Translations under genes and position numbers: made by a program | Assembly: GCA_001510275.1 (NCBI GenBank) | Contig: LFEY01000007.1 | Location: 1 to 64,000, forward strand | DNA length: 64,000 nt | From: Thaumarchaeota archaeon casp-thauma3 | Lineage (GTDB): Archaea > Thermoproteota > Nitrososphaeria > Nitrososphaerales > Nitrosopumilaceae | Reading direction: 5' to 3' | Shown: piece after piece, positions 1,358 to 56,225 of the stretch | Layout of the letters: each line of letters starts with the position of its first letter | Numbering within the stretch: the stretch's first letter is position 1 | Notes under the pieces: generated by a model | What the model was told of the DNA's origin: nothing | The model's database searches: none | Seen by the model: the letters and a program-made list of their open reading frames with translations, nothing else

Positions 1358-2794
1358 ATTTGAATTGTAATTTTCATGGAAGACTTGGAAAGTCTTTAAA
1401 TTTACCATGATTGCTATTCCTGGGTTTGGGGTCATTCCAACACTAGCTTGAAAAGGTGTTTGTTTTTGCCATGAACCAGAATTCACCAATAAAATTCCCT
1501 TATACATATCCAATTGAGCCTTGTGAACATGACCCACATGAAAGATATCTGGAACATCCTCAATTACTAAAAGATCCTCCATTTCAGGTGCTATAGGCGT
1601 CTGACTCCCATAAATTGGACTTAGATGCCTTGCTCTGAGAAGATGCTTCATCACGTTTGTTGGTTTATCATAATTCATCCCTGGTGTGGTCTTTACAATA
1701 TCATCTATACTCTGTCCATGAAACATCAACACCTTTACACCATTTAACGAAACTACGGCTGGGTTTCCAACCATAACTACATTTTCTCTTTCCCACAAAC
1801 TTAAATTATATTTTTTTGGTATAGCTGGTTGTGGAAGAGCTCTTCTTCCAGGATCATGATTTCCAGGCATTATTATAATCTTTATATTTTTTGGAATCTT
1901 GTCAATCAAACCATCTATTTTTTCTAATTGCTCTTCAATGGTTTGACAAACCAATTCTTTATCCTGATTTGGATATATCCCAACCCCATCTACTATATCT
2001 CCCCCAATTAGGATAAATCGAATTTTTCTTGCAGTTGGATCTGGGCTTGACAACCATGAAACGAACTCTGTAAATTCCTCTTCCATGAAGTATTTACTTC
2101 CAATATGCAAATCAGAAAGAAAGACAGCATACACTTCACTTTCTGATTTATTAATGGGTTGGTCTGGAATATCTGGTAGAATTATATCCTTAATGATAAA
2201 TCCAGAACTCTTTCCCAAACTTACCCTTACCATAATGAACTGATCTGTTAGAAGAGTACCTGCAGTCTTTTGCAACTCATCATCAAAAATAATACCCTCA
2301 AATGAGCCTGATGGATCCTCAAGGATCAACTTTGTGATATTTCTCTCAATATTTCTTGTAGTGAGAAGTCCGCACACAAACATATCCTCTTCTAATTTTA
2401 CAGTTTTTACAGATGCTATAGATTTGAGCATTTTTGATTCTGGCCTATCTGAAATTATTCGTTTGAGTTTGTTAAAACGACTTGAAAATAAGGCATTGTA
2501 ACCTTTAACCCCCTCACCTGTTGTTATCTTACTAGTGGGGTCAAACAATACTTTGATTTCACTTTGTAGTGTTGGGTCCTCTTTAATTCCAAGATATGTC
2601 TCTAAATCATTTTGATTAATCTGAAATAATTTCTGTCTGGTCTTTTCTCTAACTATTTCTTTTATTACCTTCTCTAATTTTTTAACATCTACATTTTCTA
2701 AGATTTTAAAAGCACCTGGATGAATTTGGAATCCTTTATTTAATGCATAATTTAGTGCAAAGGTAAGCTCCTTTTTCATATCAAAAAATATCAT
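1334..2794 (-). CDS. polB: DNA polymerase D small subunit (DP1, 3'-5' exonuclease)
   Basis: DP1 is the proofreading subunit of the archaeal replicative polymerase D and partners with the large DP2 subunit, which is not in this window. The 486-residue protein has an N-terminal helical region, a central OB-fold segment (about 135-215) and a calcineurin/Mre11-like phosphoesterase domain. All metal-binding motifs are visible: DLH at 228-230, GDIVD at 265-269, GNHD at 311-314 and GHVH at 421-424, so the exonuclease looks active. ATG codons at 2794 and 2779 are both possible starts. The gene converges on cdc6 and diverges from the next membrane-protein gene across only 42 bp. Confidence 0.93.
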   Translation of the reverse strand: MIFFDMKKELTFALNYALNKGFQIHPGAFKILENVDVKKLEKVIKEIVREKTRQKLFQINQNDLETYLGIKEDPTLQSEIKVLFDPTSKITTGEGVKGYNALFSSRFNKLKRIISDRPESKMLKSIASVKTVKLEEDMFVCGLLTTRNIERNITKLILEDPSGSFEGIIFDDELQKTAGTLLTDQFIMVRVSLGKSSGFIIKDIILPDIPDQPINKSESEVYAVFLSDLHIGSKYFMEEEFTEFVSWLSSPDPTARKIRFILIGGDIVDGVGIYPNQDKELVCQTIEEQLEKIDGLIDKIPKNIKIIIMPGNHDPGRRALPQPAIPKKYNLSLWERENVVMVGNPAVVSLNGVKVLMFHGQSIDDIVKTTPGMNYDKPTNVMKHLLRARHLSPIYGSQTPIAPEMEDLLVIEDVPDIFHVGHVHKAQLDMYKGILLVNSGSWQKQTPFQASVGMTPNPGIAIMVNLKTFQVFHENYNSNSDNILQS

Positions 2795-7178: not shown

Positions 7179-8537
7179 TTACCAAACATCATCTACTTCA
7201 TCAAGAAGTTTGTATTCTTTCTCAGTTTCACGTTTCATTAGTTTTAGTCTAGAAATGTCTCTATCAAAGAACAGATCTATTTCCCAATCAAGTAACACTC
7301 TAATTTTTTTATCAAGAGTTGGAATTTTTGAGAGATAGACATTTCTCCAAAGTAACCATGCCCAAAATCCAGAAATATTCATTCCCAAAAATGTAGCAAT
7401 TCCTGACCTCTTTCCAATAATTGCCATTTGTCCTTTGGAATGATATACAAATTTTTCTTTTTGTGAATTTTTAATTAATGCTTTCAAATTCTTTACTGCT
7501 GTTTTTGCTTGAGCTTCAGCAATTTGTGCAGTTGGAGGAAATGGTCTTTGTGTTTCAGGATTTAAAAATAATGCACAATCACCGATTGCAAAAACTCCAG
7601 GAAAATCTGGAACCTCAAGATGGTCATTAACAATAACTTTACCCTTATCAGTCTTGAACATTGATCTCTTGATTGTGTTAACAGGAGTTATTCCTGCAGT
7701 CCAAATCATAGTCTTTGTTATGATTGCATGAATCTCTGATTCATCTATTGAATTTCTTGTGTTTTCATCTAATGATTTTGTGGTAATTTCATTTCCATCA
7801 AAACTAGTTACTGCTGTTTTTAATCTAATATCAATTCCTCTTTCTTCCATCTTCTTTTTTGCAAATTCTGCTAGTTTTTGATCGAATCCTGGCAAGATCA
7901 TTGGTAATGCTTCTAACACGATAACTTTGAGGTCTTCTTTGTGAATAGTAGGATAGTGTTTTCGTGCATCTAAAAGTAGATCCATTAATTCACCAGCAGT
8001 TTCAATTCCTGCAAAACCACCTCCTACCACAACAAAATTCAAAAAACTTTTTCTAAGTATTGGGTTAGTCTCATTTTCTGCCTGTTCAAGCATATCGATA
8101 ACTCTATTTCTTAACATCACAGCATCATTGAGTGTCTTCATGGTGTAGGCATTTTTTTCTACATCTACCATTCCAAAAAAATTCGTCTCACTACCAAGTG
8201 CAATTATCAGAAAATCATAATGAATTGATATACTTCTTTTATCACCTGTTCCCCATAGAGTTACTAATTTTCCATAAGGGTCAACATTTTTGATTCTACC
8301 TTCATAGAATTTTGTTTTTTTGCAGATAATTCTAATAGGCAAAACTATGTGCCTAGTTTCAATCATTCCTGATGCTACTTGTGGTAACATGGGTGTAAAC
8401 AACAAAAAATTGTCTTCACTTATCATTACTAGTTCTATTTCAGGATCATTTCCAAATTCAGATTCTAATTGTCTAGCACATTTTACTCCTGCAAAACCAC
8501 CCCCTAAAATCACAACTTTCTTCTTACTTCTGGCCAA
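7179..8537 (-). CDS. Type II NADH dehydrogenase (FAD-dependent NDH-2)
   Basis: The 452-residue flavoprotein should oxidise NADH and pass electrons to the quinone pool without pumping protons. It has an FAD-binding Rossmann motif near the N-terminus (ILGGGFAG, residues 10-17), a second nucleotide-binding motif (VVVGGGFAGIETAGEL, about 168-183), the FAIGDCA motif that contacts FAD, and the C-terminal hydrophobic/amphipathic segment (FWAWLLWR and onward) that ties NDH-2 enzymes to the membrane. Related oxidoreductases such as sulfide:quinone reductase are less likely, since the redox cysteines of that family are not obvious. Confidence 0.85.
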   Translation of the reverse strand: MARSKKKVVILGGGFAGVKCARQLESEFGNDPEIELVMISEDNFLLFTPMLPQVASGMIETRHIVLPIRIICKKTKFYEGRIKNVDPYGKLVTLWGTGDKRSISIHYDFLIIALGSETNFFGMVDVEKNAYTMKTLNDAVMLRNRVIDMLEQAENETNPILRKSFLNFVVVGGGFAGIETAGELMDLLLDARKHYPTIHKEDLKVIVLEALPMILPGFDQKLAEFAKKKMEERGIDIRLKTAVTSFDGNEITTKSLDENTRNSIDESEIHAIITKTMIWTAGITPVNTIKRSMFKTDKGKVIVNDHLEVPDFPGVFAIGDCALFLNPETQRPFPPTAQIAEAQAKTAVKNLKALIKNSQKEKFVYHSKGQMAIIGKRSGIATFLGMNISGFWAWLLWRNVYLSKIPTLDKKIRVLLDWEIDLFFDRDISRLKLMKRETEKEYKLLDEVDDVW

Positions 8538-18690: not shown

Positions 18691-19434
18691 TCATTTTATT
18701 GATTCTCCTCCATCTACTGCAAGTATTGCACCAGTAGTCCAAGATGCATCATCTGATGCAAAATACATTACTGCTTTTGCTACTTCCTCAGGTTGACCAA
18801 TTCTACCTAGTGGGTGCTCACTATCCATGAATTCTCTATCTTTCCGAGTTTCCAAAAATGGCTTTGTCATATCTGTATCTACTACCCCAGGACAAATACA
18901 GTTAACCCTAATCTTGTCTTTAGCATATTCAAGTGCCCAACATTTTGTTAGCAGAATCAGTGCCGCTTTTGAAGCAGAATATGCATCAGCATTAAAGCCT
19001 TGATATGCCTTTAATCCTGCATCAGATGAAATGTTAATTATTGAACCATTTGTTTTTTTCAAATGAGGAATTGCTTCCTTAGTAAATCTAAACTGTCCTG
19101 TAAGATTTACATCTAATACTTCATTCCATTCATCCTCATCAATCTCATGCAATTGTTTGATCTTTGGAAATATTCCTGCATTATTTACAAGAATATCTAA
19201 TTTACCAAATTTCTCAATTGTTTTGTTTACAACATTTTTTACATCATTTGTATTTCTAATGTCAGCTGCAATACCAATTGCATTATGAATCTCTAATGTT
19301 GATTTTTCCAATCTTTCTTGGTTCTTTGCTGTTATTACTACTGTTGCTCCATTTTCTGATAAAATTTTAGCTGTGGCAAATCCTATTCCACGACTTCCAC
19401 CAGTTACTAATGCAACTTTTCCAGATAATCTCAA
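18691..19434 (-). CDS. Short-chain dehydrogenase/reductase
   Basis: A 247-residue classical SDR with the cofactor motif TGGSRGIGFA (residues 11-20), NNAG at about 85-88, the catalytic Ser in IINISSDAG and the YSASK motif (Tyr about 152, Lys 156). The sequence is closest in pattern to FabG-like 3-oxoacyl reductases and glucose dehydrogenases, but substrate cannot be read from it. The C-terminus ends with the usual TGAILAVDGG segment. NADP(H) or NAD(H) preference is not clear. Confidence 0.85.
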   Translation of the reverse strand: MRLSGKVALVTGGSRGIGFATAKILSENGATVVITAKNQERLEKSTLEIHNAIGIAADIRNTNDVKNVVNKTIEKFGKLDILVNNAGIFPKIKQLHEIDEDEWNEVLDVNLTGQFRFTKEAIPHLKKTNGSIINISSDAGLKAYQGFNADAYSASKAALILLTKCWALEYAKDKIRVNCICPGVVDTDMTKPFLETRKDREFMDSEHPLGRIGQPEEVAKAVMYFASDDASWTTGAILAVDGGESIK

Positions 19435-19538: not shown

Positions 19539-19570
19539 TTTTAAATAGTTAAAGTTACTATAGTAATTAA
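19539..19570 (+). promoter_or_regulatory. Promoter candidate of the GC-rich RNA
   Basis: A TATA-like box (TTTTAAATAG, 19539-19548) stands about 25-30 bp before the point where composition switches from nearly pure A/T to GC-rich at 19571. The spacing is right for archaeal transcription starting at the edge of the structured segment. Confidence 0.4.
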
Positions 19571-19700
19571 TGCCGAAGGATATAATTCCTATCGACTGAA
19601 ACTGCGAAGCCCCGCAGAACGAAAAAGGCAATCAGACGTTATGACGTACTGACAACGAGAGGAAATCTCTCAAAGTTCTGCAGTAAAGGGGTTCCGCCTC
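19571..19700 (+). ncRNA. Candidate structured noncoding RNA
   Basis: This 130-nt intergenic stretch is about 48% G+C, far above its surroundings, and no reading frame covers it. It folds into a branched structure: a long helix pairs 19608-19620 (AGCCCC then GCAGAAC) with 19688-19693 and 19675-19681, interrupted only by an AGTAAA bulge, and can extend through GCG/CGC (19604-19606 with 19695-19697). Inside it are two hairpins, 19633-19651 (CAG-ACGT stem, TATG loop) and 19657-19671 (GAGAG/CTCTC with a GAAAT loop). It does not match 5S rRNA, tRNA or other RNAs I recognise. Strand is inferred from the upstream TATA box. Its 3' end meets the stop of the minus-strand gene at 19701. Confidence 0.6.
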
Positions 19701-20129
19701 TTAATTTTCTAAAATATCCACAGATACTGAACCCAATATGTTTCCATTTGGATTAATAATTATTGAAACTTGTTGCATCTCAGAAATCAGAATGATTTTC
19801 TGTCCATTATATTCCCATGTAAAATACTCAGAGATTCCAGTTTGATGTGACGTACTTTTAAGCTCAAAATCCTCAGAAAAATCAAAATTTTCTCCATTTA
19901 ACATTATTGATAAGATATTTGGACTACTTCCATTTGGAACAAATCTAAAAGAATATTCTCCCTTATCAACAGTAAATGTATCAGTATAGACTCCATTAGT
20001 GTATAAATTAGGATCTGCAAGAGTTGCATGAAATACTAAACTTTCTTCTTCAGATGAATCAAATGAAAAATTTACTACAAAAACTGTAATTATCACAACT
20101 ATGGGAATTACTACTATTTTTTTATTCAT
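19701..20129 (-). CDS. Membrane-anchored or secreted hypothetical protein
   Basis: The 142-residue protein has one N-terminal hydrophobic helix (residues 5-22) followed by an extracellular beta-rich domain with TFTVDKGEYSFRFVPNG and a C-terminal ISIIINPNGNILGSVSVDI-like strand pair. The pattern is like the emp24/GOLD or jelly-roll type domains seen in thaumarchaeal exported proteins that bind small polar ligands, but the match is loose. Its stop codon borders the candidate RNA. Confidence 0.6.
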   Translation of the reverse strand: MNKKIVVIPIVVIITVFVVNFSFDSSEEESLVFHATLADPNLYTNGVYTDTFTVDKGEYSFRFVPNGSSPNILSIMLNGENFDFSEDFELKSTSHQTGISEYFTWEYNGQKIILISEMQQVSIIINPNGNILGSVSVDILEN

Positions 20130-20284: not shown

Positions 20285-20926
20285 ATGCCTAATTTACATA
20301 GTAAATGGTCAAAACAACCACAACCAAGTATTACTGAAAAAATTAATGATACTATCAAGCCTAAAGGCCCACTAAAACCAAGGGTTCAGGATGGAATTAA
20401 GAAACTACAATTACAAATTAAAAAATTAGATTCAATGTTAACAAACTTACAAGAACGTGATGCAAAATTATTTCAAAGAATTGTAACTGCAACACAAAAA
20501 CATGATACTCAAACTAGTAAAGTTCTTGGTAATGAGTTAGCAGAAGTAAGAAAAGTTACAAAAATTTTGAGTAGTGCTAGAATAGCATTAGAACAAATCG
20601 AATTACGATTAACTACCTGTAGTGATCTTGGGGATACTGTAGTAGCAATTATGCCAACTATGGGACTGATGAAGAATCTAAAATCATCACTTGGAAAAAT
20701 AATGCCTGGGGCTGAACAAGAAATTAGTCAAATGGCAGAAATGCTTGGAGGATTTATGACAGAAAGTTTCTCAGGGGATGCAGCATTTGGAATGAATGAA
20801 ACAACTAATGCCGAATCTGAAAGTATTCTAAAAGAAGCTGCTGCTGTAGCAGAAAGTTCTGCAGGTCAAATGTTCCCTTCAGTTCCATCAAATATTCAAG
20901 AGGCAACTACTTCTAAATTCTTTTAA
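20285..20926 (+). CDS. cdvB: CdvB, ESCRT-III-like cell division protein (paralogue 1)
   Basis: CdvB proteins polymerise at mid-cell and drive membrane constriction in archaea with the Cdv system. The 213-residue protein has the basic N-terminal helix and the long helical hairpin of the Snf7 core (KPRVQDGIKKLQLQIKKLDSMLTNLQERDAKLFQRIV, about residues 35-70), then an acidic C-terminal part with helices likely to be autoinhibitory. It closely parallels the protein encoded at 44182 (shared LKPR, RDAxLFQR, SNELAE/GNELAE and FPSVPS segments). No MIT-interacting motif is certain. CdvC/Vps4 and CdvA are not recognised in this window. Confidence 0.93.
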   Translation: MPNLHSKWSKQPQPSITEKINDTIKPKGPLKPRVQDGIKKLQLQIKKLDSMLTNLQERDAKLFQRIVTATQKHDTQTSKVLGNELAEVRKVTKILSSARIALEQIELRLTTCSDLGDTVVAIMPTMGLMKNLKSSLGKIMPGAEQEISQMAEMLGGFMTESFSGDAAFGMNETTNAESESILKEAAAVAESSAGQMFPSVPSNIQEATTSKFF

Positions 20927-56151: not shown

Positions 56152-56225
56152 TGCGGAGTGCGGGATTTGAACCCGCGGCCTTCAACTTGGGAAGCTGACG
56201 TCATACCAGACTAAACTAACTCCGC
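56152..56225 (-). tRNA. tRNA-Gly (anticodon CCC)
   Basis: A complete cloverleaf on the minus strand: acceptor GCGGAGT with ACTCCGC, anticodon stem TCAGC/GTTGA around the loop TTCCCAA, so anticodon CCC, and T arm GCGGG-TTCAAAT-CCCGC. Discriminator base is A at 56152 and CCA is not encoded. No intron is seen. It lies immediately 3' to the C39-TPR stop codon. It reads GGG codons for glycine. Confidence 0.97.

Follow-up and report, generated by a model that had tools for sequence, protein, structure and literature searches.

The window analysed here, the whole 64,000-nt stretch of DNA, contains a short GC-rich segment between two minus-strand genes, which a preliminary description made from the letters had taken for a noncoding RNA. 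This locus raises the question whether the segment is a functional RNA, and whether it is in fact noncoding. Nitrosopumilaceae are among the most abundant marine archaea and are major ammonia oxidisers, and to our knowledge few of their small RNAs have been catalogued.

The locus and its fold

The segment and the features around it are as follows.

19569 to ~19708, plus strand: candidate structured RNA, predicted to start at the purine 19569 and probably ending within a U-rich tract
19698 to 19709, plus strand: U-rich 3' tract, presumed terminator
18691 to 19434, minus strand: short-chain dehydrogenase gene, the upstream neighbour
19701 to 20129, minus strand: 142-aa gene without a Pfam family, the convergent neighbour, its stop codon abutting the RNA
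20285 to 20926, plus strand: Snf7-like (CdvB-type, ESCRT-III) gene, one gene from the RNA, with a Pfam score under the curated cut-off
56152 to 56225, minus strand: tRNA-Gly (ccc), the only hit in the window to a tRNA or to an Rfam family

The G+C fraction was 0.47 across the RNA and 0.18–0.35 for nearly all adjoining 130-nt windows, in agreement with the GC island in AT-rich DNA described before, while the left edge given then (19539) is replaced by a start at about 19569. The covariance model match at this locus spanned 19569–19699, and with both ends predicted from sequence the RNA would be about 135–140 nt long. Its U-rich tail (to ~19708) overlaps the final codons of the convergent 142-aa gene.

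The plus strand was predicted to fold with −41.9 kcal/mol (z = −4.3; 0 of 200 shuffles as good). The minus strand gave a similar z, again with 0 of 200 shuffles as good, and folding alone therefore leaves the strand undecided. The long closing helix with two inner hairpins, reported in the preliminary description, was present as described among the following helices.

19574 to 19594 (19574–19579 with 19589–19594), plus strand: hairpin P2, inside a short open reading frame (ORF), with compensatory changes at 6 of 6 pairs
19604 to 19613 with 19688 to 19697, plus strand: closing helix P3a, 97% of cells paired, compensatory changes at 6 of 9 pairs
19614 to 19620 with 19675 to 19681, plus strand: helix P3b, 97% of cells paired, compensatory changes at 7 of 7 pairs
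19632 to 19652, plus strand: hairpin P4, variable in sequence, with compensatory changes at all pairs
19657 to 19671, plus strand: hairpin P5, GAGAG-GNAAU-CUCUC, nearly invariant in sequence

Covariation was examined in an alignment of 59 homologs that was not fitted to the structure, and in two model-based alignments (69 and 58 homologs) that were fitted to the structure and hence favour it. In the alignment of 58 homologs, 92% of cells were paired and two-sided changes were found at 30 of the 34 pairs of the branched fold, on each of five measures all 500 shuffles fell short of what was observed, and pairing fell to 36–48% when the partners were shifted by 1 to 3 columns. The alignment of 59 homologs led to the same verdict on covariation, and P2, P3a, P3b, P4 and P5 were supported by all three alignments, P2 being the weakest helix with 75% of cells paired. 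In the structure-fitted alignment, which favours the fold, G-U cells outnumbered A-C cells (121 vs 32), and since they do so the plus strand is favoured as the RNA.

By eye, pairing of AUGCC with GGCAAU suggested a 5' pseudoknot. The signal for it is at best weak, as 57 of 5000 partner-swap permutations scored as well or better and the pairing is disrupted in divergent members, and the pseudoknot is not claimed. The exact P5 motif occurred 0–3 times per genome in 13 genomes of the genus Nitrosopumilus, and P5 as a motif common to other transcripts was rejected because the matches compared were copies of the RNA itself.

Distribution, neighbours and known families

A DNA search found the RNA in 118 of 200 Nitrosopumilaceae genomes (14 of 22 genera), and across the class Nitrososphaeria the covariance model detected it in 160 of 300 genomes (17 of 69 genera, all in Nitrosopumilaceae), mostly with 1–4 copies per genome and with one in the genome of the window. 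Conservation and covariation in relatives, which the preliminary description had named as the checks to be made, were thus both observed. A second model was run on another 40 genomes, 34 of them from other families, and in these 34 every match was weak (E ≥ 0.1) and lacked the anatomy of the RNA; the weak matches in G242 and G250, outside the family, and in G007 were inspected and rejected for the same lack. Judged from these sequences, the RNA is old within Nitrosopumilaceae, often multicopy and deeply covarying, and as far as searched it is specific to this family. Viral contigs and phages that were searched contained no convincing match, and a viral or phage origin was rejected.

Several copies deserve separate mention. 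L257 is a divergent member of the family (E = 0.0084) that adjoins the same convergent gene, and at 1501–1621 (minus strand) it retains most of P3a and P5. L116 carries two divergent tandem copies (1192–1310 and 1501–1618) about 190 nt apart. Two copies in G081 (C3:211734–211885 and C6:16434–16585) had equal score and identity to the query, reflecting a duplication or an assembly artefact.

The gene context was listed in 86 rows, in which some loci were fetched twice. The family of the convergent 142-aa gene follows most fetched copies across many genera, with its stop codon between 8 nt inside and 23 nt beyond the RNA match (95 nt in one case). The 142-aa protein has a hydrophobic stretch at its N-terminus, and at many copies adjoining its gene a Snf7-like (CdvB-type) gene lies within the fetched flank. 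Other copies adjoin a gene with DUF1246/DUF1297 domains, and further neighbours include a TFB-like gene, a radical-SAM-like gene and others, those lacking a Pfam call being named by eye. The T fraction over the 15 nt past CGCC was 0.51–0.62 for copies at either type of locus. No constant same-strand gene was found downstream among the fetched copies. Since the neighbours differ, are mostly convergent and include no constant downstream gene, a cis-acting leader is argued against.

As the preliminary description had supposed, the RNA lies outside known RNA families: 4227 Rfam models gave no match at the window locus up to E = 10, and searches of divergent homologs to E = 1 found none at the RNA, guide families included. 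Archaeal RNase P RNA (RF00373) was rejected because the only match of this genome lies elsewhere, on contig C1, and tRNA or tmRNA because ARAGORN returned only the tRNA-Gly at 56152 in the window. No description of the RNA was found in the open-licence papers searched, and subscription journals may contain one, for example among marine psRNA surveys. The RNA is previously uncatalogued in this sense, and its comparison across genomes strongly supports the view that it is a functional structured RNA of Thaumarchaeota belonging to no known family.

A nine-codon leaderless ORF

The preliminary description had stated that the segment contains no reading frame. Within the 5' end of the RNA, however, a very short ORF was found behind a TATA box.

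19540 to 19547, plus strand: TATA box TTTAAATA, 22 nt before the AUG, kept in homologs
19570 to 19599, plus strand: leaderless ORF of 9 codons (MPKDIIPID, stop TGA), shorter than ORF callers list

The gap of 22 nt between TATA box and AUG was kept in 165 of 177 homologs, which bears out the earlier remark on a TATA-like box at a proper distance. The TATA box of protein genes in these genomes lies most often 21–22 nt before the ATG (26 of ~46 boxes, 55 nt scanned), and because the spacing is the same, the position of the AUG is that of a leaderless start. Leaderless mRNAs are widespread in archaea (PMC7531240, PMC11698992).

The ORF was noticed only after the homologs had been gathered via the RNA. 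Using a search anchored on P3, an ORF of 9 (175) or 8 (6) codons was found in 181 of 183 homologs, which are related sequences and not independent events, so that such proportions describe the set and are not probabilities. Its start was ATG in 177 and GTG in 4 of these 181. The stop codon of the window ORF is followed by P3a after 4 nt, and across the 181 homologs with the ORF the distance from stop to P3 was 2–7 nt, with 3–4 nt in 171. Some ORF counts chose candidates near the expected start, among them the count over 177 homologs, in which the stop was TAA in 106, TAG in 53 and TGA in 18; TGG was absent at this position. The 8-codon forms differ by whole codons, the frame is kept through 3-nt indels, and nine codons are retained even where P2 differs. 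In divergent, poorly aligned copies nine codons were read by eye, beginning with ATG in L124 and L132 and with GTG in L127, L133 and L134.

The two exceptions among the 183 were L075, in which the start is lost, and L193, in which the stop is lost. In the latter copy (~7410–7537, minus strand) the stop is replaced by GAA TAT, giving a 12-codon frame. L257, a syntenic copy outside the 183, had no nine-codon ORF on inspection. Because L075, L193 and L257 are without the ORF, the RNA may tolerate its loss.

The encoded peptide is free to vary. The 72 distinct ORF sequences gave 70 peptides, 88 peptides were counted across 177 homologs, and pN/pS between near-neighbour ORFs was about 4, a value confounded by the pairing of ORF bases in P2. 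A conserved peptide product is therefore unsupported, and these numbers indicate that the ORF itself, not its peptide, is kept. Of the earlier reading as a noncoding functional RNA, the functional structured RNA stands by conservation and covariation, while "noncoding" is not supported, since its 5' end includes a nine-codon leaderless ORF. What the comparison of homologous sequences establishes is the RNA with its strand and fold, the geometry of its promoter, and an ORF conserved in start, length and stop.

Proposed working and alternatives

While the length of the ORF is nearly constant, its peptide shows no conservation; this suggests that what counts is a ribosome moving across the frame rather than the peptide it encodes. 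We infer transcription and translation of the RNA, as well as a switch and any target, along the following lines. A ribosome would begin at the 5' AUG and melt P2; when at the stop codon, it would have opened part of P3a, with P3b, P4 and P5 remaining folded. The RNA would switch between two folds, one closed and untranslated, the other open and engaged by a ribosome, would work in trans via the exposed P3a strand or via a protein binding the P5 hairpin, and would report translation or initiation capacity. The name riboregulator, already suggested in the preliminary description, may thus be plausible. With somewhat less than even confidence, we propose that the RNA is a riboregulator acting in trans, and that a ribosome crossing its length-locked mini-ORF reads and resets its fold. 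More tentatively still, it may represent a new class of stand-alone regulatory RNA, in which one ribosome sets the fold through a leaderless mini-ORF of free sequence, serving as a translation gauge in trans.

Alternatively, though this is somewhat unlikely, the RNA is a structured RNA acting in an RNA-protein particle or as a base-pairing sRNA, in which the mini-ORF merely loads a ribosome that guards against 5' decay or early termination and the fold itself, rather than translation-driven switching, is the working part. Such protection fits an ORF whose start and stop are kept while its peptide is free, a P5 sequence that is nearly invariant like a protein site, and the one syntenic copy that has the fold without the ORF, but it leaves the nine-codon length and the 3–4 nt between stop and P3 unexplained. 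The ORF-like appearance might even be incidental, with AUG and stop acting as motifs for protein binding or folding in a plain noncoding RNA; this is the least probable of the explanations weighed. The AUG and the U of the stop codon are unpaired and could be protein contacts, and the ORF overlaps P2, whereas GTG replaces ATG in four homologs, three stop types occur there with no TGG, the frame survives 3-nt indels, and nine codons persist where P2 differs.

The intact ORF and a pN/pS above 1 would also suit a very small mRNA whose nonapeptide product is secreted or acts as a signal and diverges from species to species, the structured 3' region giving stability. We regard this as improbable, because the peptides have no residue pattern beyond that imposed by P2 and no export signal, and conservation lies mostly in the 3' fold. 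Equally doubtful is a cis attenuator, in which translation of the mini-ORF decides whether the polymerase stops at the P3 helix and U tract, read-through being antisense to the convergent neighbour. The order of short ORF, helix and U tract and the 142-aa convergent gene adjoining most copies speak for it; yet the genes next to the copies vary and are for the most part convergent, P3 and the U tract lie apart in distant copies, and archaeal transcription termination requires no hairpin.

The trans-acting riboregulator proposed above may be compared with several known systems. Bacterial leader-peptide attenuators (trp, his and erm leaders) are alike in a very short ORF whose translation would set the fold; of the short ORF and competing helices that mark such attenuators, the ORF and a helix were seen here. 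They differ in that the present RNA is stand-alone and leaderless, with no constant gene downstream: no same-strand operon follows it, as most neighbours are convergent. Its codons are not amino-acid-specific, and neither conserved regulatory codons nor a stalling peptide was found (88 peptides in 177 homologs, with the confounded pN/pS of ~4). tmRNA is likewise a small structured RNA with a short ORF, whereas the present RNA begins with its own AUG and has no tRNA-like end. Tan1 (PMC5069720), an abundant ncRNA of marine Euryarchaeota, resembles it as an unassigned structured ncRNA of marine archaea, but is 229 nt long and from another phylum.

Dual-function sRNAs of the SgrS/SgrT type also hold a short ORF in a small RNA, and a promoter of its own, an ORF and a U tract were seen by sequence at the present locus; the difference is that the present ORF is constrained in length but not in peptide sequence. 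A stand-alone RNA holding an ORF that is kept for its length and not for its peptide is unusual. Small RNAs with ribosome occupancy have been reported in Haloferax (PMC12482152), and these ribosome-bound small RNAs are taken here as an analogy to the present RNA.
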